DNA from: Limosilactobacillus reuteri subsp. reuteri
Lineage (GTDB): Bacteria > Bacillota > Bacilli > Lactobacillales > Lactobacillaceae
Reading direction: 5' to 3'
Length of the DNA stretch: 64,000 nt
Assembly (NCBI RefSeq): GCF_000016825.1
Contig: NC_009513.1
Coordinates: 955,001-1,019,000 of the forward strand
Part shown: one piece after another, positions 26,592 to 43,733 of the stretch
Layout: the number at the start of each line of letters is the position of its first letter
Numbering within the stretch: the stretch's first letter is position 1
Translations under genes and position numbers: made by a program
Notes under the pieces: generated by a model
What the model was told of the DNA's origin: nothing
The model's input: the letters and a program-made list of their open reading frames with translations, nothing else
The model's database searches: none

Positions 26592-26987
26592 TAATTTTGC
26601 AAGTTTTGGGTAATTGAGCACAGCTTATGTTGTGTTAGGAAGGTCCATGCTCGCACAGGCTGCGATGCCTGTAGTGTTTGTGCTCGCTGAAAAAATAAGG
26701 CGGGGCACCATTTTATGGTGACGGCGGAAAAACGGACTAAGGTTTTAACTATGTCTTAGTATTCCTGAAAAGTGCCACAGTGACGATACAATATTGGAAA
26801 CGATATTGGTGGAACGCGGTAAACCCCTCAAGCGGTAAACCCAAACTACGGTAGGGGAGCTTTGGATAGCAAATTGAAGTGATTCCAGGGGAGAGTATTT
26901 CGATACTCTGAGATAGATGATTACCTCGATATAATTATGCCTGATAATTATATTACGACAAAACATGGCCTACAGATACTTGCATAC
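26592..26987 (+). ncRNA. rnpB: RNase P RNA, type B
   Basis: Catalytic RNA of RNase P, which matures tRNA 5-prime ends. Recognised by the conserved blocks GGTCCATGCTCGCAC (near 26641), the P7-P11 segment AAAGTGCCACAGTGACGA (about 26769), GTGGAACGCGGTAAACCCC (about 26810), GATAGATGATTACC, and the 3-prime ACAAAACATGGCCTACAGA. P1 is TGCAAGT (26598-26604) with ACTTGCA (26978-26984). The layout matches the Bacillus type B RNA. Exact ends are estimated from P1. A UUCG-loop terminator follows. Confidence 0.95.
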
Positions 26988-27907: not shown

Positions 27908-29104
27908 GTGCAAACATATCAGTTAATTGCTACTGCTGCTGCAGGTATTGAAGCATTAGTAGGAAAAGAACTAAGAGACCTTGGCTATGAAGTCAAAGTA
28001 GAAAATGGTCGGGTGCGTTTTCAAGGGACAATGAAGGATGTTATTCGGACTAATCTCTGGCTACGGACAGCAGACCGAGTAAAGATTGTTGTGGGTGAAT
28101 TCGATGCTCGGTCTTTTGAAGAATTGTTTGATCGTACTGAAAACATCGCATGGGAAGATTTTTTGCCAATTGATGCGAATTTCCCAGTAGAAGGAAAAAG
28201 TCATAACTCACAATTGCATAATGTGCCAAGTGTTCAAGCAATCACTAAAAAGGCGATTGTTCAACGTCTCAGTAATGCATACCATCGGCGGACTCGTTTA
28301 GCCGAAACTGGTGCCACTTACCCGTTAGAAGTAGCGATTAATAAAGACCATGTTCTTCTTACGTTAGATACTAGTGGAGAGGGGCTTTTTAAGCGTGGAT
28401 ATCGTAAAAATAAAGGTGGAGCACCGTTGAAGGAAAATATGGCAGCCGCCTTGGTGATGCTGGCTCACTGGTTTCCAGATAATCCATTTGTCGATCCTGT
28501 ATGCGGTTCGGGAACGATTCCAATCGAAGCCGCATTATACGGTCATAATATTGCGCCGGGCATCAACCGTTCATTTATTAGTGAACAATGGGTTAACTTA
28601 GTTCCAGATGGTTTATCTGATGAAGTTCGGGATGAAGCCGATTCCTTAGCAAATTATGATATCGAATTAGATATCCACGGATATGATATTGACCAAAACA
28701 TGATTGATATTTCTCAAGAAAATTCTCGTGCGGCAGGTTTAACTCATGATATTACGTTTAAGCAATTAGCCGTAAAAGACTGGCAAACAAGCGAAGTTAA
28801 TGGAGTTATCGTTGCTAACCCGCCATATGGTGAACGGCTAAGTGATAAGAAATCAGTTCACGAACTTTACCGGCAGATGGGTGAGTTATATCGTCCATTA
28901 ACCACATGGAGTAAATATATTTTGACGGCTGATATGGAATTTGAAAAGTATTATGGAGCACCCGCTACCAAGCGTCGTAAACTTTATAACGGTGCTTTAC
29001 GAACAGATCTCTACCAATATTGGGGTAAAAAAGATCGCTCCAAGCCCTTAAATAGCAAGGGTTTCAACGAAAATGCTGTTTTAAAAACGTCAAAAGGGGG
29101 ATAA
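27908..29104 (+). CDS. ypsC: THUMP-domain 23S rRNA m2G methyltransferase, YpsC/RlmL-like
   Basis: 398-residue RNA methyltransferase. N-terminal ferredoxin-like and THUMP domains (about 1-160) bind RNA; the C-terminal class I SAM fold has FVDPVCGSGTIPIEAAL (motif I, about 196-212), DIDQNMI and the catalytic NPPYGERL (motif IV, about 303), typical of N2-methylguanine formation. Corresponds to the N-terminal half of E. coli RlmL. GTG start after AAAGGAGAG. Sits downstream of rnpB as in Bacillus. Confidence 0.92.
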   Translation: MQTYQLIATAAAGIEALVGKELRDLGYEVKVENGRVRFQGTMKDVIRTNLWLRTADRVKIVVGEFDARSFEELFDRTENIAWEDFLPIDANFPVEGKSHNSQLHNVPSVQAITKKAIVQRLSNAYHRRTRLAETGATYPLEVAINKDHVLLTLDTSGEGLFKRGYRKNKGGAPLKENMAAALVMLAHWFPDNPFVDPVCGSGTIPIEAALYGHNIAPGINRSFISEQWVNLVPDGLSDEVRDEADSLANYDIELDIHGYDIDQNMIDISQENSRAAGLTHDITFKQLAVKDWQTSEVNGVIVANPPYGERLSDKKSVHELYRQMGELYRPLTTWSKYILTADMEFEKYYGAPATKRRKLYNGALRTDLYQYWGKKDRSKPLNSKGFNENAVLKTSKGG

Positions 29105-29127
29105 AAGGGGGAAATTCTCCCAATAAT

Positions 29128-29173
29128 AAAAGCCTTAGTAGGAGTTACATTGTAACGACCGCTAAGGCTTTTT
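29128..29173 (+). terminator. Terminator after ypsC
   Basis: AAAAGCCTTAG (29128-29138) with CTAAGGCTTTTT (29162-29173) plus an inner GTTACA/TGTAAC hairpin. Confidence 0.85.
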
Positions 29174-29237
29174 CTCTGTTTGGTGGCTGATAGAACACGT
29201 GGATGATATAATTAAGACGATATGCTGTTTTCTAAAA

Positions 29238-29633
29238 TCACTCTATTTTGTGGAGGGCCTGATTTGCTAAATTATGTGCTCCACGATTTTGACTTTCAGG
29301 AATCCACTGGGTAACAACCGTTGGAAAGTGTTGGAGGAGAGGATTTAGTGCTGCTAATTCTTTTTGGTAATGTTTTGTATAATTTTTGCCGATTGCGTCA
29401 CTTAAGATACGACTATCAGTATAAAATAGGATTGTTTCATTATTGCTAAAGTGATCAATTAAATATTTAAATCCAAAGTGAGCTGCAGCAAATTCGCCAT
29501 GGTGATTATCCATTTTTTCCTTATCTACTGGAATTGCAAGCTGAATTTGCTTATGATTGGCAATTATTATTATTCCCAAACCAGTAGGGCCCAGGTTTCC
29601 TTTTGTTGCAGCATCTGTAAAGATTTTGATCAT
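29238..29633 (-). CDS. RNase HI-like protein (RVT_3 type)
   Basis: 131-residue RNase H-fold protein. Three catalytic carboxylates are in place: Asp7 (IFTDAATKGN), Glu about 47 (HHGEFAA) and Asp about 73 (FYTDSRI). The fourth position, Asp in E. coli RNase HI (xCDELA), reads AHNLA here, a His variant seen in RVT_3-type families. Expected to cut RNA in RNA-DNA hybrids, but activity is uncertain. The ATG at 29633 follows AGAGGT; the longer frame to 29789 only adds non-homologous residues overlapping the divergent gene. Confidence 0.8.
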   Translation of the reverse strand: MIKIFTDAATKGNLGPTGLGIIIIANHKQIQLAIPVDKEKMDNHHGEFAAAHFGFKYLIDHFSNNETILFYTDSRILSDAIGKNYTKHYQKELAALNPLLQHFPTVVTQWIPESQNRGAHNLANQALHKIE

Positions 29634-29672
29634 AAAAACTACCTCTTTTCTGAAAGGATGACATTTATAATT

Positions 29673-30065
29673 ATGGAAGAAGAAACTCGTTATTTTTACC
29701 AACCAGACCTTACGGGGACAATTATTAGCTGGTGTTGGACTTTTCTCTTCTTTATTGCCGGTCTCGTAATTTGGCTTGAAATTACTCATTTTCAGTGGCT
29801 CAGCGCGCTCTTTTTTGCAGTTTTTGTAATCCTTGCCTTATTAGAATGGCGGCGACGAACCGTAGTAATCACTCCGACTAAAATGGTGTTTAATCGCTTG
29901 TTACAAAAACAGTACCTCGTTATCCCCATCTCTGATATTCGTCAGCCAGAGTTTACCAAGCATACGGTGACAATTACTGTGAATGGAGAGGTAATGAGTT
30001 TTACCTTTACCACCAAAGCAATTGCACGTTTGAAATTGGCATTGAAACAACAGGGGGTTCAATAA
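29673..30065 (+). CDS. EbsA-like small membrane protein
   Basis: 130-residue protein with a short N-terminus (MEEETRYFYQPDLTGTIISW), two closely spaced transmembrane helices (about 15-35 and 40-60) and a C-terminal beta-rich PH-like domain (RRRTVVITPTKMVFNRLLQKQYLVIPISDI). It resembles EbsA-type proteins of lactobacilli and enterococci, sometimes labelled pore-forming; the function is not established. AAAGGATG lies upstream; ATG 29658 is an alternative start in the same frame. It is followed immediately by lspA. Confidence 0.65.
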   Translation: MEEETRYFYQPDLTGTIISWCWTFLFFIAGLVIWLEITHFQWLSALFFAVFVILALLEWRRRTVVITPTKMVFNRLLQKQYLVIPISDIRQPEFTKHTVTITVNGEVMSFTFTTKAIARLKLALKQQGVQ

Positions 30066-30512
30066 TTGTTACTAGGGATCGCTATTGTAATTATTTTAAT
30101 TTTAACAATTTGTGACCAATTATTAAAATCTTGGGTTGCTTCTTCAATTGTTCTTGGTGGTAGTAAGCAGTTGATTCCTGGTATTATTGAGTTAACTAAT
30201 TTACGAAATTCAGGGGCTGCTTGGAGCATTTTTGAAGGGCAACAAACTTTTTTTACCATTATAACTATTGTTGCGATTATTGTAATTGGTTACTTTATCT
30301 GGCAGTACCGTAAAAATATTCCTATGCTAATTGGCTTATCATTGATTATGGCAGGAACAATTGGCAACTTTATCGATCGGTTAAGACAAGGGTATGTTGT
30401 GGACATGTTTGAAACAACATTTATTAATTTTCCAATTTTTAACATTGCGGATATGTGCTTAACAATTGGCGTAATCTGGCTAATAATTTGCATCTTAAAG
30501 GAGAAAGACTAA
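30066..30512 (+). CDS. lspA: Lipoprotein signal peptidase (signal peptidase II)
   Basis: 148-residue four-helix membrane aspartyl protease that removes signal peptides from diacylated prolipoproteins. Conserved Asp/Asn blocks: ICDQLLKSW, NLRNSGAAWSIFEG, GNFIDRLRQGYVVDM (first catalytic Asp) and FPIFNIADMCLTIG (second catalytic Asp). Starts at a TTG directly after the previous stop codon, with CAGGGGGT as RBS. rluD begins three bases after its stop codon, so the two are coupled. Confidence 0.95.
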   Translation: MLLGIAIVIILILTICDQLLKSWVASSIVLGGSKQLIPGIIELTNLRNSGAAWSIFEGQQTFFTIITIVAIIVIGYFIWQYRKNIPMLIGLSLIMAGTIGNFIDRLRQGYVVDMFETTFINFPIFNIADMCLTIGVIWLIICILKEKD

Positions 30513-30515
30513 CAA

Positions 30516-31427
30516 ATGTCTGAAGAATTAGAATTAACAATTGATGGTGAGATGGTGGGAAGGATTGATAAGCAGCTTGGTCATCACTTTGATCAATTTT
30601 CCCGATCACAAATTCAACATTGGATAGAAGATGGTCACGTCCTTGTTAATGGCAAGCAGGTAAAGCCTAAATATAAGTTGCTTGTAGGTGACCACGTCCA
30701 AATAATTCCAGAAGAACCACAAAAAATTGATTTAGCACCTGAGGATATTCCTCTTGATATTGTATATGAAGATGATGATGTTATTGTCGTTAATAAACCG
30801 CAGGGGATGGTCGTGCATCCAGCACCAGGTCATCCAGATCATACGCTTGTGAATGCTCTTTTATATCATTCACCACTATCAACTATTAACGGAGAATTTC
30901 GGCCAGGAATTGTTCATCGGATTGATAAGGATACCTCAGGACTATTGATGGTAGCCAAAAATGATATGGCGCACCGTTCTTTGACAGCTCAATTAAAGGC
31001 AAAAACTAATAAACGAGAATATGTTGCGCTTGTGCATGGAGTTATAAAAGAAGATAAAGGAACAATTGATGCTCCATTGGGTCGCTCATTAAAAGACCGT
31101 AAGAAACAGGCAGTTGTAGTTGATGGACGTCATGCGGTAACCCATTTTAATGTGTTAGAACGGTTTAAGAATTATACCTTAGTTGCTTGTCAGCTAGAAA
31201 CGGGACGAACCCATCAGATTCGCGTTCATATGAAATATATTGGTCATCCACTGGCAGGAGATCCGTTGTATGGGCCTCGAAAAACACTCGCTGGCAATGG
31301 CCAATATTTACATGCTCGTTTGTTGGGCTTTAAACACCCCCGAACAGGTAAAGAAATGGTTTTTACGGCTCCATTACCAGCTTATTTTGTAAAAATGCTT
31401 GAACATTTACGCAAGACCGACCAATAA
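30516..31427 (+). CDS. rluD: RluD-family 23S rRNA pseudouridine synthase
   Basis: 303-residue enzyme that isomerises uridines to pseudouridine in 23S rRNA. N-terminal S4 domain (about 15-80, SRSQIQHWIEDGHVLVNGKQVKPKYKL), catalytic HRIDKDTSGL with Asp about 138, and the GRTHQIRVHM motif near 238. The lspA-rluD order matches Bacillus lspA-ylyB, where the pyrimidine operon follows; here a degenerate carAB pair follows instead. Confidence 0.93.
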   Translation: MSEELELTIDGEMVGRIDKQLGHHFDQFSRSQIQHWIEDGHVLVNGKQVKPKYKLLVGDHVQIIPEEPQKIDLAPEDIPLDIVYEDDDVIVVNKPQGMVVHPAPGHPDHTLVNALLYHSPLSTINGEFRPGIVHRIDKDTSGLLMVAKNDMAHRSLTAQLKAKTNKREYVALVHGVIKEDKGTIDAPLGRSLKDRKKQAVVVDGRHAVTHFNVLERFKNYTLVACQLETGRTHQIRVHMKYIGHPLAGDPLYGPRKTLAGNGQYLHARLLGFKHPRTGKEMVFTAPLPAYFVKMLEHLRKTDQ

Positions 31428-31503
31428 AATTATTGTGTTTAATTTGGAGAACGTTCATAATAATATTGATCAATTATTAACAAAGTTTTAGGAGAGTGGG
31501 ACA

Positions 31504-32589
31504 GTGACAGCACGATACCTAATATTTGAAGATGGCTCAATTTTCGCTGGCGAAGGTTTTGGTTCACCAGCTGTTACTTTTGGTGAGGTTGTTTTTAATA
31601 CCAGTATGACTGGTTATCAAGAAATCATCACTAATCAGGTTTACAATAACCAAATTGTCGTTTTTACCCAGCCAAATATTGGGAGTTACGGCATTCAACG
31701 TAATATTTATGAATCCATTGTACCGACAATTAAAGGAATTATTGTTCGTTCCCTTGCTGATGCTGGAACTAATGATAACGGACGCCAATTGACTCTTGAT
31801 AAATACCTTCAACAAATGAACATTCCGGGAATCACTAATATTGATACACGGGCAGTAGTTCATAAATTAAGAAAAGCTGGAAAACCATTAAAAGGAAGCA
31901 TTGTTCCAGTTCCGGATGATCACGCTTTTGACCAGCTTCATGCGACTGTTTTAACGAACCAGCAAGTTGCTCAAGTCTCTACTTCTAAACCATATCCTAA
32001 TCCCGGAATTGGGCTAAGCGTTGTTGTGATTGACTTTGGATTAAAGAATGGAATATTGCGGGAATTGAGTCGACGAAAATGTAATATTACTGTCTTACCA
32101 TATACTGCAACGGCTGAAGAAATATTACGATTAGATCCTGATGGGGTTGTACTTTCAAGCGGTCCAGGGAATCCCAATAATGTTCGTAAGTCAGTCCTGG
32201 AAATGATTCGTACTGTCCAAACTAAAGTACCAATGTTTGCTATTGGATTGGGCCATGAATTATTTGGAATCGCCAATGGGGCGGATGTCCAGCAAATTCC
32301 AGTTGAACACCATGGCATGAACCATCCAATTCATGAAATCATTACTGACCACATTGTTTATGCAACCCAGGCAGAAGGCTATCTGATTAATCGTAATTCA
32401 GTTGACCGCTCCCAGCTTTTTATTACGTATGTTGATATGCTTGATAATAGTGTTCAAGGGCTTCGTCATCGTCGTTATCCGGCGTTTTCAGTTCAATTCT
32501 TCCCTGATGGTGCACCGGGCCCTGATGAAACTGATGGCTTATTTGATGAATTCGTCGATACAATGAATAGGAGGGGGGATCGTCATTGA
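31504..32589 (+). CDS. Carbamoyl-phosphate synthase small-subunit paralogue lacking the catalytic triad
   Basis: 361 residues, the usual CarA length, with both domains recognisable: N-terminal small domain (ARYLIFEDGSIFAGEGFG, MTGYQEI) and a C-terminal class I glutamine amidotransferase fold (VVIDFGLKNGILREL, VVLSSGPGNP). The catalytic residues are gone. The nucleophile motif GICLGHQ reads AIGLGHE with Gly248 in place of Cys (GGA codon, 32245-32247); SVQYHPEA reads SVQFFPDG, so His is Phe333 and Glu is Asp335; SQNHGY reads TQAEGY. It cannot hydrolyse glutamine by the known mechanism. GTG start after GGAGAGTGGG. It overlaps the carB-like gene. The frame is open, so selection for some other role is plausible. 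Confidence 0.9.
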   Translation: MTARYLIFEDGSIFAGEGFGSPAVTFGEVVFNTSMTGYQEIITNQVYNNQIVVFTQPNIGSYGIQRNIYESIVPTIKGIIVRSLADAGTNDNGRQLTLDKYLQQMNIPGITNIDTRAVVHKLRKAGKPLKGSIVPVPDDHAFDQLHATVLTNQQVAQVSTSKPYPNPGIGLSVVVIDFGLKNGILRELSRRKCNITVLPYTATAEEILRLDPDGVVLSSGPGNPNNVRKSVLEMIRTVQTKVPMFAIGLGHELFGIANGADVQQIPVEHHGMNHPIHEIITDHIVYATQAEGYLINRNSVDRSQLFITYVDMLDNSVQGLRHRRYPAFSVQFFPDGAPGPDETDGLFDEFVDTMNRRGDRH

Positions 32590-35063
32590 TGGAAAAGTTG
32601 AAATCTGTATTAATTATTGGAGCGGGAGCCAACGATGTTCAGCATGGAGATGAGCTCGACTCTGCTATTTACCAGGTCTCACGCGTTTTTAAACAAATGA
32701 AGATAAAGACTATCTTGGCAGACGATAACCCATTTTCGGTAAGCTTAGAAAACGTTGATCACGGTTGCATTGTCCCATTAAAAGTCGAGAGCCTAGTAGA
32801 TATTATTAATAAGTTTCATCCAGATGCAATCTTGCCTACTTTAGGTAATCGTCGAGCTTTTGAGCTTACCCAAGAATTGCTAGAAAAAGGAATTATTCGT
32901 AAAGAAAATATTCAACTGCTAGGGGTTCCTGAAGCAACTATTCGTCAAATTAATAGTGCTGTTTTGCTTGAACGAACGCTTCGACAAATGGAAGCACCAG
33001 TTAAGAAAATCGTAACGGTTAATAATTATCAGGATGCTTTGGATGAGGCAACTAAACTAGGGTATCCAGTTATTATCAGGTCAGTATTACCTAAGAGTAG
33101 CAGTACGCGTAAAATTGTGCATGATCGAAGTGAATTGGCAGATGCAGTAAAGGTTTGCTTGAGCCAGTCGCGGGCAGAACAAGTAGTAGTTCAGCAAAGT
33201 CTTGCCGGCTATAAGGAAATTGAAGTCGTCGTTCAACGTGATAGTTCTGGAACAATGATGATGTTGTCAATGATTGAGGATATGGACCCAATCGGTATCC
33301 ATGCTGGTGATTCAATTGCCTTCAATCCTGTCCAGACACTTCGCGATCGACAGATTCAGGATATTCGAGATACGGCTTTTGCTATTACCCGCAAATTAAG
33401 AATTGTCGGCACGAACCATATTCAGTTTGCCCTTGATACAAACAGTGATCGTTTTTATGTCATTAAGAGCAGTCCATACTTTGATCGAATTACAGCGTTT
33501 GTATCGCAGTCGACTGGTTATCCAATTGCCCAAGTAACAGCACAATTATATGCAGGAAAGCATCTGCGGGACATTGATCTTGGTGAAAATTATGTTCATC
33601 ATGCGGCTCTTATCGAACCAACAATGGATCATATTGCTGCACGGGTTCCAATATGGGGATTCAACGATTTACCAAAAGCTAGTCGTTTACTTGGAACAGA
33701 AAAGCGGTCGGTGGGGACGGTTTTTGGTATCGGCCGAAGTACTATTGAAGCACTTTTTAAAGCTATTGAATCCCGTTATCACGAGCCAGCTGACTTTCAT
33801 CTTGCCGCTCAAAAGCAATTGACTGATGACCAATTAATCGCCAAAATTGTCCACCCCGAAGCAGGCCGACTTTTTGTATTAATTGAAGCAATGCAGAGAG
33901 GGTACTCAGTTAATGAATTAGCAGAGATGACAAAGATTGATCCGTTTTATTTTGAACAGATTAATAAAATGCGGTTGTTGATTCGTGAAATTGCTGATCA
34001 TCCAAATAAAGAGCCGGTTTTGCAAAAAGCTAAGAGTTACGGCTTGAGTAACCAGCTTATTGCAAGACTGTGGAATACTACCCCTGAACAAGTTTATCAG
34101 ATGAGTATAGACCACCAATTATTGACAAAGTATAAAGAAATCGAACCATCAGCTGGGGAGTTTGATCAGCATACTAATAGTTTTTACTCTGCTTACGAAG
34201 AAGAAAATGAAATTAGTCGAACTTCTCAACCAAGCGCTCTGGTGATTGGGACAGGGGGCTTACGATTAGGATTAAGTAATTCCGGTGATTACTTTGTTGC
34301 TATGATGTTAAAAGAACTTCATAATGAAGGCTTTAATAATGTTGTGGTAAATTCAAACCCTAGTTCCGTCACTTTTGATCCAGAGTTAGCTGAAAAACGT
34401 TATGTTGAACCGGCAACAATTGAAAATATCTTGCAAATATTACGGATAGAGCAACCCCAGTATTTGTTTATTCCCACTAGTTATGATAAGTTACTAAAAT
34501 CGTTGCAGAATTATGATCTGGATGTAAAAATTGTTATAATTCCAGATGAATTGCCAACTACTGCTGCTAGTAGCGATAGGCAACGTTACTCCTTCAATTA
34601 TGTCTATGATGGCAATTATGCTTATCCATTAGGAACAATGACTGATCTTTTTTCACCAATTGCGTTAAACTATCAATCCACCGCTTTACGCTACCCGGCT
34701 GATCTTCCTTCATCAACTTACCAAAATCTTAATGACCAGGCTAGTATTGCTGTATTAAAGATGGAACAGCCAGGGTTATACCAAGTGATTTTTGAAGAGA
34801 ATGATGGTGAATTTAATTTAATGAAAGTTCAACCATTATCATTACCAGAAGTATCCTTTTTATCAAAAGCACTTCATATTAGCTTACCAGGAATTTTTAC
34901 TCAATTATTCACTGGTAAATTCGATAAAATGCTGGAGCCCAAACCGGTATCAGGGATTGTTAATTATCGTGCAACTTTCCCATTTAAGGCATTGCGAGTT
35001 AAGGGTGGAATCCCTGCCCGTAATCGAGTCATTGGTGCGCAGATGCAATTTTTAGGAGAATAA
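32589..35063 (+). CDS. Degenerate carbamoyl-phosphate synthase large-subunit paralogue
   Basis: 824 residues instead of about 1060. The first half keeps the CarB order (pre-ATP-grasp, ATP-grasp with QQSLAGYKEIEV and DPIGIHAGDSIAFNPVQTL), but the Mg-ATP motif EVNPRVSRSSA reads KSSPYFDRITA, so the metal-binding Glu and Asn are Lys293 and Ser295, and GGQTALN is replaced by TLGNRRAFE. The oligomerisation region follows, then a second pre-ATP-grasp domain (VIGTGGLRLGLSNSGDY). The second ATP-grasp is mostly missing, with only a tail-like FPF...RVIGAQMQFLGE, and there is no MGS-like allosteric domain. Carbamoyl phosphate synthesis is very unlikely. ATG at 32589 (TTG at 32586 is possible), overlapping the carA-like stop. 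Confidence 0.88.
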   Translation: MEKLKSVLIIGAGANDVQHGDELDSAIYQVSRVFKQMKIKTILADDNPFSVSLENVDHGCIVPLKVESLVDIINKFHPDAILPTLGNRRAFELTQELLEKGIIRKENIQLLGVPEATIRQINSAVLLERTLRQMEAPVKKIVTVNNYQDALDEATKLGYPVIIRSVLPKSSSTRKIVHDRSELADAVKVCLSQSRAEQVVVQQSLAGYKEIEVVVQRDSSGTMMMLSMIEDMDPIGIHAGDSIAFNPVQTLRDRQIQDIRDTAFAITRKLRIVGTNHIQFALDTNSDRFYVIKSSPYFDRITAFVSQSTGYPIAQVTAQLYAGKHLRDIDLGENYVHHAALIEPTMDHIAARVPIWGFNDLPKASRLLGTEKRSVGTVFGIGRSTIEALFKAIESRYHEPADFHLAAQKQLTDDQLIAKIVHPEAGRLFVLIEAMQRGYSVNELAEMTKIDPFYFEQINKMRLLIREIADHPNKEPVLQKAKSYGLSNQLIARLWNTTPEQVYQMSIDHQLLTKYKEIEPSAGEFDQHTNSFYSAYEEENEISRTSQPSALVIGTGGLRLGLSNSGDYFVAMMLKELHNEGFNNVVVNSNPSSVTFDPELAEKRYVEPATIENILQILRIEQPQYLFIPTSYDKLLKSLQNYDLDVKIVIIPDELPTTAASSDRQRYSFNYVYDGNYAYPLGTMTDLFSPIALNYQSTALRYPADLPSSTYQNLNDQASIAVLKMEQPGLYQVIFEENDGEFNLMKVQPLSLPEVSFLSKALHISLPGIFTQLFTGKFDKMLEPKPVSGIVNYRATFPFKALRVKGGIPARNRVIGAQMQFLGE

Positions 35064-35077
35064 TTTAGAGATATAAA

Positions 35078-35228
35078 GGGAGCGAGACAGAAGTCACTTG
35101 TGACTTCGTTTTCGAGCCCCCGCAAGCAACAATAGGCCTCTAACGTTCGGTTTTGCCGGACGTTAGAGGCCATTGTTGTACTGCGTATTTGCTTTTTATG
35201 AAAGTAACTTAACTTATGTCACAGTCCC
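35078..35228 (+). repeat. 151-bp structured palindromic repeat, copy A
   Basis: Starts GGGAGCGAGACAG and ends TGTCACAGTCCC; the two ends form an imperfect terminal inverted repeat of about 19 bases. Inside are an AAGTCAC/GTGACTT hairpin and a central stem GGCCTCTAACGT (35135-35146) with ACGTTAGAGGCC (35160-35171), extended by AACAAT/ATTGTT. A T run follows the right end, so it may also terminate transcription between the convergent carB-like and rqcH genes. A second copy on the other strand is at 45500-45651. Confidence 0.85.
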
Positions 35229-35231
35229 TTT

Positions 35232-36914
35232 TTAGTTAGAAAGTTTATGCGGTGTTACATAAAGTGTTTTCTGACCTGTAAAAATAACAAAGCCAGGTTT
35301 AGCTCCGTTTGGCTTATGAAGTCGCTTGACAGGAAGATAATCAACGGGCACATTATCTGAATCGCGACCTTTAGAGAAGTATGCTGCTAACTGTGCGGCT
35401 TCTAGAATCGTATCTTCAGATGGGTTTGTTGAGCGGATTACCACGTGGGAACCTGGGATATCTTTAACATGTAACCAAATTTCATTTTTATTAGCAATTT
35501 TAAAGCTAAGACGGTCATTTTGCAGGTTGTTTTTACCTACTAAAACCGTAGTGCCATCACTAGTATGGAATTCTTCTGGAGCACTTACCTTAACTTTTCG
35601 TTGCTTTTTCCCGCTTTTCTTCTTTTTAATATAACCCTGTTCTTGCAGTTCCAGTTTGATCTCTTGAATATCAGCGGGAGCAGCTAATTTAATCTGGTTT
35701 TCAATGTTTTCAAAGTATTTGATTTCATCATTTGTCAGTTTTAGCTGTTCCTTTACATACTCAACAGAGGTTTTGAGCTTATTATACTTAGTAAAGTACT
35801 TTTGGGCGTTGCGCGATGGTGATAATTCTGGAGCAAGCTTGATTTTTAGTGGCTTATTATCATCATAAAAGTTAGGAAGTTCGATTTCTTTCATTCCTGG
35901 AGTTAATTTACTAAGATAGGTAGTAAGGATCTCACCACAAATTCGGTACTGATCTGCAGTTGCTGCATCTTGTAATTGTTGTTGCAGTTTTTTTACTTTT
36001 CGCCGATCTTTTTTTAGCTCATTCTTCAATACCTTTAACACTTGCCCAGCTAATTCTTTGGAACGATCTTGCTCTGCTTTATTAGCATAGAAGGCATCGA
36101 GAAGGGCAGAGAGGGAGTCGAAATGTTGCAACTCACCATCAATATTTAATGGAGGGAACACAGCAAATTGAGTTTTTCCATTAGAGTGGGTGATTAATAC
36201 TGGCTCTGGATTTTCAAAGTGCTTAAGAAAGTGCTGATAGGTAGCTGGTAAATTATCACTTTGCAGTAATTCTGCAGCTAATTCCCGTGCGGAGTCTTTG
36301 CCAAATCCTTGATAATGCTCCTGTAACTGATGACTTAATTCTACTGTGTCATCGGTTTGTCTTACAAGATCAGAGTAGACCTGGTTTGGCAAGTAAGGGT
36401 TAACTTTATCTTGCTTTGGTGGCATGACAAAGGTAGCACCAGGTAATAACAGGCGAACCCGATTTTGATCTGAGCCAACATGCTTAATGGTGTCAATGAT
36501 TTTACCCGTCTTGAGATTAACGAGTGAAATATTACTATGCCGGGCCATAATCTCACTCACAAGAACTAATTGTTGACTATCTCCTAATTCATCACGAGTG
36601 TCAAAGGTAATTTTGATAATTCGATCATTATCAACTTGTTCAATTTTATTGACGATTGCACCTTCAAGGTATTTCCGCATTGTCATTGTAAAATTAGTTG
36701 GAACCGCCGGATTTTTGTATGGGATCTCAGTAATTTGGATTCGTGGGTATGTTGGATTAGCAGAAATGAGTAATGGGTAGTTGTGCCGGTGAGCACGGAT
36801 CGTAATGATTAATTCTGCAGGGTAAGGTTGACTAACTTTGGCTACCCGACCAGTAGTTAATTTTTGATCTAGCTCATGGACAATTGCATGAGTAAACAAG
36901 CCGTCAAAAGACAT
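35232..36914 (-). CDS. rqcH: Ribosome quality control protein RqcH (NFACT / FbpA family)
   Basis: 560-residue Rqc2/NEMF homologue; it recognises obstructed 50S subunits and adds C-terminal alanine tails. NFACT-N domain (MSFDGLFTHAIVHELDQKL..., about 1-265), helix-hairpin and long coiled coils (about 270-440; KNELKKDRRKVKKLQQQLQD) and the NFACT-R domain (about 450-545; FHTSDGTTVLVGKNNLQNDRLSFKIANKNEIWLHVKDIPGSHVVI). Older annotation calls it fibronectin-binding protein. Its 3-prime end abuts repeat copy A. Confidence 0.93.
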   Translation of the reverse strand: MSFDGLFTHAIVHELDQKLTTGRVAKVSQPYPAELIITIRAHRHNYPLLISANPTYPRIQITEIPYKNPAVPTNFTMTMRKYLEGAIVNKIEQVDNDRIIKITFDTRDELGDSQQLVLVSEIMARHSNISLVNLKTGKIIDTIKHVGSDQNRVRLLLPGATFVMPPKQDKVNPYLPNQVYSDLVRQTDDTVELSHQLQEHYQGFGKDSARELAAELLQSDNLPATYQHFLKHFENPEPVLITHSNGKTQFAVFPPLNIDGELQHFDSLSALLDAFYANKAEQDRSKELAGQVLKVLKNELKKDRRKVKKLQQQLQDAATADQYRICGEILTTYLSKLTPGMKEIELPNFYDDNKPLKIKLAPELSPSRNAQKYFTKYNKLKTSVEYVKEQLKLTNDEIKYFENIENQIKLAAPADIQEIKLELQEQGYIKKKKSGKKQRKVKVSAPEEFHTSDGTTVLVGKNNLQNDRLSFKIANKNEIWLHVKDIPGSHVVIRSTNPSEDTILEAAQLAAYFSKGRDSDNVPVDYLPVKRLHKPNGAKPGFVIFTGQKTLYVTPHKLSN

Positions 36915-41823: not shown

Positions 41824-43733
41824 ATCGAGTAGGAGATAATTGATTAGTTCAATTATCGACCTCTCACACCACCGTACGTACGGTTCCGTATACGGCGGTT
41901 CGACAACTTAATCACTTTGAATTGACTGGAGCGTCTTGGACATATTCATAAGTCCGAGTTGTTCCAGTTTTCTATTTGTTAGAGAATAGCTCAAGGTCTT
42001 ACTGTGTGCAGTTCGCCAGTAGCCCTTGCGGGTACTAGCGAAGACGTATGCATCACGCTGGGACAGCCCCAGCTTCTGTAAGTTAGTTACCTTAGTTTTA
42101 AGCTTCTTCCATTGCTTCCAGATATACTGTCTTATTCGGGCCCTCAACCACTTGTCAAGGCGTTGAATAAAGTCAGTTAGTTTCCCAATTGAGTAGTACT
42201 GAAGCCATCCACGCATTTTTCGCTGAATTTCTTCAAACATTCTTGTCAGAGATATTCCACGATTACGTTTAGTTAATAACCTCAATGCTTTCTTTACTCG
42301 TTGTTGCGATTGTTTTGCTGGACGGGCGTAGGCTCCATTGTGGTCTACACCCAACGAAAAGCCAAGAAACTTTAACCGTAGCGGGCTACCGACTTTGGTT
42401 TTATCTGGGTTCACTTTAACTTTCAATCGCTTTTCAAGAAACTGGGTAATGCTTCGCATTACTCGTTCTCCGGCTCGTTGACTTTTAACATAAATGTTAC
42501 AATCATCCGCATAGCGCACAAAGTGGTGACCACGTCTAGTCAACTCTTTATCCAACTCATTTAGATAGATATTCGCCAGTATTGGTGACAATGGCCCTCC
42601 TTGTGGGGTTCCTTTTTCACTCTTAGCGAAAAGCCCATGGTCTAAGACTCCGCTAGTTAGAAACTTACGAATGAGCCTTAGTGTCCATGGGTCATCAATA
42701 TATTGTTGAAGATACTTAATCATCAAGTCATGATTAACATTATCAAAATAGGCTTTTAGGTCTAAGTCGACAACTCTTCGATAACCTTGATTATAAAGAT
42801 CTACTACTTTTGCAATAGCGTCGTGAGCCCCACGGTGAGGGCGGAAGCCAAAACTATTATCAGAGAAAACACGCTCAAAGATAGGTGTAAGAATTTGGGC
42901 CACAGCTTGTTGAACCATTCGGTCCACCACTGTTGGTATTCCGAGTTTTCTTACTCCACCATTAGGCTTCGGAATTTCTACCCGTTTGACTGGTGCTGGT
43001 TTATACTTGCCCTCACGCAAACTAGCGATCAATTCCGTCTTATTTTCTCTGAGATATGGCAGAAGGTCATTGACTGTCATATCGTCAATGCCTGCTGCCC
43101 CTTTATTTCTCTTAACTCGCAAATAAGCCTGATTAAGGTTATTGCGGTCCAAGACTAAGTCTTGGATAGTGACACTCATACCTTTACCTTCACCATAATC
43201 GGTACTACGCGCCCTTGTGTACTTTCGGTTTTCCAAACCTATCCTCGACAAGCGGTCAGCTTGTTGTTCTGTTTTCTGCGATTGTCGCACCTGATTACAC
43301 CTCCGATATAAGTTACAAGTTATTGTCGTTCAGTCCTTCATCTGATTACTCAGACTACTATGACCTCGGCTGACTTCTGGCTTACTCAACGCTACATCAC
43401 TGCACCGCTTGTTTCTGTGGAAATTAAACTTATTCCTCTTGTCGGAAACGTGTAGGCCAGATCTCCCCGGGTAAGGATATTAACTTTCGTACCATGTCAC
43501 CGGTAGCTTTACTGAAAGTAACTTCGAGTAGTGTTGGACTTTAACTTGTCATGCAGTCTTATCCAGTTAGTTCCAGCCTTATAGCTACTTCTTGTTCATC
43601 GGTGCAGTACTTTGCCTTAGACTTCCTTCAGATTCCACCTCACAGTGGACACCCTTGTCCTCAGCTCATGGTTCCGACTACTACGGCCCATAGCGGACTC
43701 TCACCGCCTAGCTAATACCCATGCCGGGCGCAC
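41824..43733 (-). mobile_element. Group II intron, bacterial class C
   Basis: About 1.91 kb retroelement on the minus strand. The 5-prime end is GTGCG at 43733; domains I-III and early IV occupy 43291-43733, the maturase is in domain IV, domain V is the 42-base hairpin 41901-41860 (GAACCGCCGTATACGG ... GGTGTGAGAGG), and domain VI ends TCGAT at 41828-41824. The 5-prime exon is the stem and short T tract of a rho-independent terminator, the insertion preference of class C introns. The 3-prime boundary is inferred from domain VI pairing and could shift by a few bases. Confidence 0.88.
41908..43290 (-). CDS. ltrA: Group II intron reverse transcriptase/maturase
   Basis: 460-residue intron-encoded protein. 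RT domain with fingers (KRNKGAAGIDDMTV), EIPKPNGGVRKLGIPTV, LDLKAYFDNVNHD, EKGTPQGGPLSPILANIYL and the intact active site FVRYADDCNIY; then the maturase X domain (RKMRGWLQYYSIG) and a basic C-terminus. There is no HNH endonuclease domain, as in class C introns, which prime from the replication fork or terminator hairpin. The frame and active site are intact, so the intron may be mobile. Confidence 0.95.
   Translation of the reverse strand: MRQSQKTEQQADRLSRIGLENRKYTRARSTDYGEGKGMSVTIQDLVLDRNNLNQAYLRVKRNKGAAGIDDMTVNDLLPYLRENKTELIASLREGKYKPAPVKRVEIPKPNGGVRKLGIPTVVDRMVQQAVAQILTPIFERVFSDNSFGFRPHRGAHDAIAKVVDLYNQGYRRVVDLDLKAYFDNVNHDLMIKYLQQYIDDPWTLRLIRKFLTSGVLDHGLFAKSEKGTPQGGPLSPILANIYLNELDKELTRRGHHFVRYADDCNIYVKSQRAGERVMRSITQFLEKRLKVKVNPDKTKVGSPLRLKFLGFSLGVDHNGAYARPAKQSQQRVKKALRLLTKRNRGISLTRMFEEIQRKMRGWLQYYSIGKLTDFIQRLDKWLRARIRQYIWKQWKKLKTKVTNLQKLGLSQRDAYVFASTRKGYWRTAHSKTLSYSLTNRKLEQLGLMNMSKTLQSIQSD

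Follow-up and report, generated by a model that had tools for sequence, protein, structure and literature searches.

A carbamoyl-phosphate synthetase-like gene pair of Limosilactobacillus reuteri and other Lactobacillaceae has lost the catalytic residues of all three centres and is probably a non-catalytic sensor or regulator

Identification of the psA-psB pair

The window analysed here is a stretch of 64,000 nucleotides from Limosilactobacillus reuteri subsp. reuteri (NC_009513.1, positions 955,001 to 1,019,000 of the forward strand). It contains a gene pair, designated psA-psB, that encodes paralogues of CarA and CarB, the small and large subunits of carbamoyl-phosphate synthetase (CPS). The catalytic residues of all three centres (the glutaminase Cys and His, the metal/ATP residues of ATP-grasp 1, and ATP-grasp 2) have been lost, and the pair is probably a second CPS copy that turned into a non-catalytic sensor or regulator. 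We estimate the probability at roughly 0.6 that psA-psB is a CPS-derived double pseudoenzyme, which would form a non-catalytic, ligand-binding regulatory or scaffold complex; this estimate is based on sequences and structure models. The genome, a single contig of 2.0 Mb, also contains a canonical CarA (380-codon frame) and CarB (1065 aa) at about 102-107 kb.

The two genes and the domains of psB are located as follows (window positions):

31504..32589, + strand: psA, CarA paralogue of 361 aa, GTG start
32589..35063, + strand: psB, CarB paralogue of 824 aa, ATG start
32601..32945, + strand: psB pre-ATP-grasp domain 1, residues 5-119 (Pfam PF25596)
32976..33569, + strand: psB degenerate ATP-grasp 1, residues 130-327 (Pfam PF02786, residue tallies, low dN)
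33843..34073, + strand: psB oligomerisation domain, residues 419-495 (Pfam PF02787)
34218..34457, + strand: psB second pre-ATP-grasp domain, about residues 544-623 (phmmer match to E. coli CarB 4-83)
34554..35060, + strand: psB ATP-grasp 2 remnant, about residues 656-824 (alignment, profile match, structure model)

An earlier reading of this DNA from its letters alone (the sequence-only reading) had described psB as an intact frame of 824 residues overlapping the carA-like gene. This is correct, and the overlap is one base: the psB ATG at 32589 lies within the TGA stop of psA (32587-32589). For psA, Pfam lists the CPSase small chain and GATase domains. PF25596 counts two stretches in psB, in agreement with the claim that both pre-ATP-grasp halves were kept. 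In the structure models each chain is predicted with high confidence as a CPS fold; the psB model has the overall fold of a CPS large subunit and can be aligned to E. coli CarB up to residue 923.

Loss of the catalytic residues

In the psA of the window, the catalytic Cys269 is replaced by Gly248 and the catalytic His353 by Phe333. A tally was made of 78 psA rows chosen by best BLAST match, with no row for L020 (contig end) or L073 (an antisense open reading frame (ORF) was picked; psA is present there). C269 was changed to G in all 78 rows, Q273 to E in 77 and H353 to F in 69, and none had retained His at the latter position. The dead CarA partner is an addition to the sequence-only reading.

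For psB, 80 rows were tallied in E. coli CarB numbering (the window plus 79 loci, identical copies removed); L077, with psB in three pieces, and L078, without psB, were omitted from both tallies. R129, G175, G176, E299, N301 and R303 of E. coli CarB are what we take to be the metal and ATP residues of ATP-grasp 1, with E299 binding metal. The window psB has A124, S170, S171, K293, S295 and Y297 at these positions, with H277 for N283 and R174 for G179 as further replacements. The E-x-N site reads K293-S294-S295, as had been read from the sequence, and the GGQTALN motif, which that reading had noted as gone, is aligned with GNRRAFE. E299 was replaced by K in 78 and by R in 2 of the 80 rows and R303 by Y in 71, while R129 was retained in a single row and N301 in nine. 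In 72 canonical CarB rows E299, N301 and R303 were invariant.

The C-terminus of psB (residues 632-824) is a shortened ATP-grasp 2, matching E. coli CarB 756-877 in a profile comparison (E 1.7e-8). It had been called largely absent; roughly 100 residues including the ATP-binding part are indeed deleted, with gaps at all 8 checked positions within E. coli 675-722 in 80/80 rows, but about 170 residues remain. Neither ATP-grasp site of psB is thus intact. The predicted lack of an MGS domain was borne out: Pfam lists none for psB, and MGS positions 948 and 1026 are gaps in 80/80 rows and position 1040 in 79/80. UMP, IMP and ornithine bind the allosteric MGS domain of E. coli CPS. With this domain gone, classical sensing of nucleotides or ornithine by the pair is improbable; a remodelled site might sense glutamine, bicarbonate or another ligand.

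Other old residues are still present. E210, H238, Q279 and R300 are retained in the window psB and in most homologues; in E. coli numbering, E215 and H243 were found in 82 of 84 rows, R306 in 78 and Q285 in 71. In addition, psA scores above the NCBIfam cut-offs for the CPS small subunit (351 vs 307 bits for TIGR01368; 420 vs 221 for NF009475). Both observations would suit a still active CPS with unusual residues. However, such an enzyme would have to work without the glutaminase Cys, the metal Glu and glycine loop of ATP-grasp 1, part of ATP-grasp 2 and the MGS domain, and psB falls below the large-subunit cut-offs (502 vs 1027 bits for TIGR01369; 489 vs 599 for NF003671). We consider an active CPS extremely improbable; the small-subunit sequence models are blind to psA being dead.

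The replacement residues themselves are constant: R174, H277, K293 and Y297 of psB and G248, E252, A287 and F333 of psA occur in at least 88% of the pseudo rows, in a comparison in which many rows, pseudo and canonical alike, come from one genus. The psA rows of this comparison were those containing the motif GLGHE, so that C269G and Q273E were in effect preselected; the counts quoted above are from the BLAST-chosen rows. Two further alignments contained psB-row subsets of 41 and 35 rows.

Prevalence of psA-psB in Lactobacillaceae

In 48 of 50 genomes of the window's genus, a psB-type frame is open over 817 aa or more, which excludes chance. Of the two exceptions, psB of G015 (78% complete) is cut by a contig end and that of G009 is distributed over three ORFs. 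In G009 (L077; 94% complete, 5% contamination) the canonical carB is also broken and psA is whole; its split psB may reflect an assembly error or genuine decay.

Among 301 sampled Lactobacillaceae genomes, 173 carry psA-psB, in 20 of 40 genera, including Limosilactobacillus, Secundilactobacillus, Levilactobacillus, Furfurilactobacillus and Weissella. The single case of the sequence-only reading is therefore no local oddity but a family-wide module. Carriers were counted by hand with a profile of the psB C-terminus at E <=1.6e-15, to which four genomes of genus g5 (G053, G174, G197 and G270; 1e-13 to 5e-12) were added for their frames of 824-827 aa; G217 and G299 (both 76% complete) were scored as non-carriers. 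Another 17 genera gave weak matches alone (7e-6 to 2e-14), presumably canonical CarB, and 3 genera gave none. No psB was found outside the family in a sample of the order (198 genomes, family included): the 12 extra-family genomes matching at E 1e-12 did so weakly (best 5e-15) and with frames of 1020-1071 aa, i.e. full-length CarB.

Retention without live CPS or carbamoyltransferases

The C-terminal half of canonical CarB was detected in 246 of the 301 genomes at E 1e-60; a CarB divergent beyond this threshold might escape, the weakest among the matches listed being 6.6e-71. Of the 55 genomes without it, 37 contain psB and 18 contain neither (G076 was scored in the latter group despite one CarB-like match, 7.6e-130). 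Two of the 37, G208 and G330, are poorer assemblies with one and two stops in psB, respectively. PF02729, the family of aspartate, ornithine and related carbamoyltransferases, was present in 25 of 38 genomes (the 37 CarB-less carriers plus the window genome), and 13 of the 37 had no match. Retention of psA-psB is thus independent of live CPS and of carbamoyltransferases.

These counts bear on two roles that had been proposed for the pair. As 37 of the 173 carriers have no detectable CarB, psA-psB cannot generally serve as a component or regulator of the true enzyme. Canonical CarB does accompany the pair in the other 136 carriers, as a regulator or extra subunit of genuine CPS would require; on the other hand, in the window genome a PyrR leader (RF00515, 106764-106890) immediately precedes canonical carA but not psAB, and we regard this role as very unlikely. 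The proposed sensing of carbamoyl phosphate is weakened, because of the 13 CarB-less carriers without a PF02729 match.

Purifying selection on both genes

The ratio of non-synonymous to synonymous substitution rates (dN/dS, omega) was determined for 14 relatives against the window; whole-gene dS was defined for 7. Omega of psB was 0.045, 0.076, 0.034, 0.043 and 0.040, with 0.026 and 0.038 at saturated dS, and that of psA was 0.009-0.040 in the same seven relatives. In the three close pairs in which live CarA/CarB were compared with psA/psB, dN was 0.015/0.015 vs 0.006/0.008 (G036), 0.014/0.014 vs 0.004/0.008 (G037) and 0.134/0.109 vs 0.034/0.067 (G007); in these pairs the dead pair is more constrained than live CarAB. 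With the loss of the residues of three centres and the predicted retention of both folds, this strong purifying selection upholds the proposal of a non-catalytic pair. All 14 comparisons gave a lower dN for psA than for psB. When psB was divided into five regions, the degenerate ATP-grasp 1 had the lowest or tied-lowest dN in 10/14 comparisons and the C-terminus the highest in 11/14.

A decaying, functionless relic of an old pyr operon could be suspected from the longer Enterococcus pyr operon at the equivalent place (see below), from the absence of the pair in half of the sampled genera and from the broken copies in G009 and G330. This candidate was ruled out by the intact frames in almost all carriers, where frequent breakage was not seen, and by the psB omega of 0.026-0.076, which lies at or below live CarAB in the tested pairs and nowhere near 1; we give it next to no weight.

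The constancy of the replacement residues, the low dN of ATP-grasp 1 and the retention of the pair where CPS and carbamoyltransferases were not found would also fit a new, non-CPS catalyst, in which rebuilt pockets (Lys293; the near-invariant Glu252 of psA) carry out a reaction without ATP or with another cofactor. However, the Cys and His of the triad, the metal Glu and the glycine loop are all gone, and constant residues fit binding as well. A new catalyst seems to us rather unlikely. An unlikely explanation, too, is a ligand-free structural scaffold, i.e. a pair that holds another protein or an RNA, as PyrC' does for aspartate transcarbamoylase. Full folds are predicted for both chains, the lower dN of psA is what an interface subunit might show, and the pair also occurs without CPS. 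The fixed replacements in the former pockets would be superfluous in a pure scaffold, and the 13 carriers without a PF02729 match exclude aspartate transcarbamoylase as its general client.

Origin and genomic neighbourhood

Support values in the phylogenetic trees are those of the Shimodaira-Hasegawa-like approximate likelihood ratio test (SH-aLRT). The 36 psA rows of the CarA tree form a single clade, on one side of a branch (SH-aLRT 100), as do the 27 psB rows of the CarB tree (SH-aLRT 100). psA is placed next to Enterococcus CarA (SH-aLRT 85) and psB, on a long stem, within Lactobacillaceae CarB (support 97); the two trees thus point to different donor branches.

Outside the window's genus, the gene order is rluD-pyrR-psA-psB, mostly with lspA preceding rluD, and fbpA/rqcH lies at most 400 bases from psB in 14 of 27 loci of other genera. 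Across loci, psA and psB overlap or nearly abut. PyrR (L086 copy), LspA and the RluA family scored above their NCBIfam cut-offs. In an Enterococcus, the interval from rluD to fbpA contains pyrR, three ORFs, carA, carB and five more ORFs; by size alone, the three ORFs fit uracil permease, pyrB and pyrC. psA-psB thus occupies the place of the Enterococcus pyr operon. Directly upstream of lspA, many psAB loci outside the window's genus have a formate--tetrahydrofolate ligase-like gene, recognised by motif (L079, L080, L081, L082, L086, L093, L094, L104, L105, L106 and L110; the L086 copy was confirmed by NF010030). A similar ORF of 553 aa is found elsewhere in the window genome, near 156 kb.

Around the pair, the window contains the following elements:

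31490..31496, + strand: AGGAGAG, strong Shine-Dalgarno-like sequence of psA
32569..32578, + strand: AGGAGGGGGG, strong Shine-Dalgarno-like sequence of psB, within psA and followed by the TGATG stop-start overlap
35135..35171, + strand: terminator-like hairpin of 17 pairs, 3' of psB (consensus match; 9 such matches in the window vs 6.3 expected)
30066..31427, + strand: lspA and RluA/RluD-family pseudouridine synthase genes, conserved neighbours directly upstream of psA
35232..36914, - strand: fbpA/rqcH-like gene beyond psB (NCBIfam best hit EfbA, 703 bits, below the cut-off of 1025)

The lspA and RluA/RluD-family genes are possibly in one operon with psA-psB. Rfam gave no match (E up to 1) in window 29100-32700. 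Elsewhere in the window, a group II intron was found at 41824-43649 on the - strand (RF02001 and RF01998 at one end, RF00029 at the other, around a 460-aa ORF at 41908-43290), and a class B bacterial RNase P RNA gene at 26602-26977 on the + strand (RF00011, 315 bits).

A pyrR gene was found directly upstream of psA in 25 of the 27 loci longer than 9 kb outside the window's genus. Genome G296 has a pyrR-B-C-Aa-Ab-D-F-E-like operon (by eye) elsewhere, making the PyrR that adjoins psA a second PyrR. From this layout we infer that it is PyrR2 of Lactiplantibacillus plantarum. In that species lp_1782 is pyrR2 and lp_2704 is pyrR1, according to the available part of PMC7911632, and PyrR2 has been tied to the inorganic-carbon response of the pyr operon (available part of PMC3582564). 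Only one PyrR match, at 87 kb, was obtained in the window genome, and it falls among the PyrRs of pyr operons. Its live pyrimidine genes are scattered: pyrR (~87 kb) lies beside transposase-like ORFs, carAB stands alone with its own PyrR leader, and pyrB-C-D-F-E-like ORFs (by eye), also with a leader, are found at 148-153 kb.

In G092, an RF00515 match (E 2.4e-4) lies just upstream of pyrR-psA-psB (L213, 4447-5082). The module may be PyrR-controlled in some genera.

For the 38-genome set, the ORFs following PyrR leaders were inspected by eye at 30 loci (L180-L209), and four of these downstream ORFs were checked with NCBIfam. The first ORF was uracil-permease-like in 13/30 and of a 146-aa type, usually with an NCS1-type permease next, in another 13/30; the other four were an NCS1-type permease alone, a 414-aa ORF, a pyrE-like and a pyrB-like ORF. 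As the leaders precede mostly uptake genes, retention of PyrR can be explained without psAB. The 146-aa protein was found at L183, L186, L192, L194-L199, L201, L202 and L208 (all genus g15) and at L205; the L192 copy had no NCBIfam hit and resembles, by eye, a nucleoside deoxyribosyltransferase. Species without CPS possibly have an extended PyrR regulon.

Proposed function

In the non-catalytic complex that we favour, the psA and psB chains would pair as CarA and CarB do. The former site 1, devoid of its ATP/metal residues, would use K293, H277, Y297 and R174, together with the old E210, H238 and R300, to hold a small ligand that does not react, and so would the altered glutamine pocket of psA with G248, E252 and F333. 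Occupancy by the ligand would then alter the contact of the complex with a partner. Pyrimidine control is the most plausible field for this partner, because a PyrR gene lies directly upstream of psA in most of the examined carrier genera outside the window's genus.

A narrower version, which we put forward tentatively and hold to be improbable, is that psA-psB senses inorganic carbon (bicarbonate/CO2) or the ratio of bicarbonate to glutamine, and is the missing partner by which PyrR2 tunes pyrimidine genes to CO2. The carboxyphosphate site has retained H238 and R300, and its metal-binding Glu is replaced by a fixed Lys, a combination that would accommodate an anion in the absence of ATP. Such a sensor module might have switched partners in the window's genus, perhaps to the one PyrR located elsewhere in the genome.

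Several observations weigh against a ligand-binding regulator tied to pyrimidine control. In live CarB, too, ATP-grasp 1 evolves more slowly than any other domain in 2 of 3 pairs, and the low dN of its dead counterpart may be partly inherited. Between genera psB diverges fast, with a tree stem of 1.49 and tips of up to 1.63; such speed is not required of a sensor that binds its ligand tightly. PyrR stood beside psA in none of 22 loci of the window's genus, and none of the 4 RF00515 matches in the window genome is near psAB (986-990 kb). At loci L059-L061, PyrR is 8.5 kb distant from psA. Finally, although every one of the 38 genomes (the CPS-less carriers and the window genome) has PyrR, it also occurs in 14 of the 18 genomes counted as without psB and CPS, 10 of these being strong matches. 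A functional PyrR tie by co-occurrence is therefore unsupported beyond the neighbourhood, and the PyrR link may be mere inherited neighbourhood.

Comparison with known systems

Compared with E. coli CarA-CarB (PDB 1jdb, 1a9x and 1bxr), psA-psB is without the catalytic residues of all three centres, and psB, with 824 instead of about 1060 residues, lacks the MGS domain and part of ATP-grasp 2. Ammonia-dependent synthetases of the CPS1 type (human CPS1, 5dot/5dou) have an inactive glutaminase as well. CPS1, however, retains both ATP-grasp sites and produces carbamoyl phosphate; in psA-psB neither site is intact. The inactive dihydroorotase PyrC', which holds aspartate transcarbamoylase in some bacteria, is similarly a dead enzyme of the pyrimidine pathway retained for assembly or regulation. 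PyrC' has a live partner enzyme, whereas psAB persists where CPS and PF02729 carbamoyltransferases were not found. With L. plantarum PyrR2, the likeness is the second PyrR directly upstream of psA in G296; the difference is that PyrR is not beside the pair in the window's genus, and the available part of PMC3582564 does not mention psA-psB.

Nor is the pair mentioned in the available parts of PMC7911632, PMC4521753 and PMC5218481. No literature on psA-psB was found in a search that mostly did not extend to subscription papers, where an earlier mention of a second L. plantarum pyrAaAb pair is possible.

Conclusions

Pseudoenzymes are well known and usually regulate a live relative alongside which they occur. 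As far as we have seen, the case of an entire CPS heterodimer that has lost all three sites and persists with no live counterpart is new. The contrast in psA-psB is that a two-subunit, three-site enzyme was apparently emptied of its chemistry and was retained in half of the sampled genera. For genome annotation this has a practical side: because psA passes the CPS small-subunit model, species that contain the pair alone could be wrongly credited with carbamoyl-phosphate synthesis. For the biology of the family, psA-psB is a natural test of roles of the CPS scaffold other than catalysis, and a candidate for CO2 or nitrogen sensing in lactobacillar pyrimidine control.

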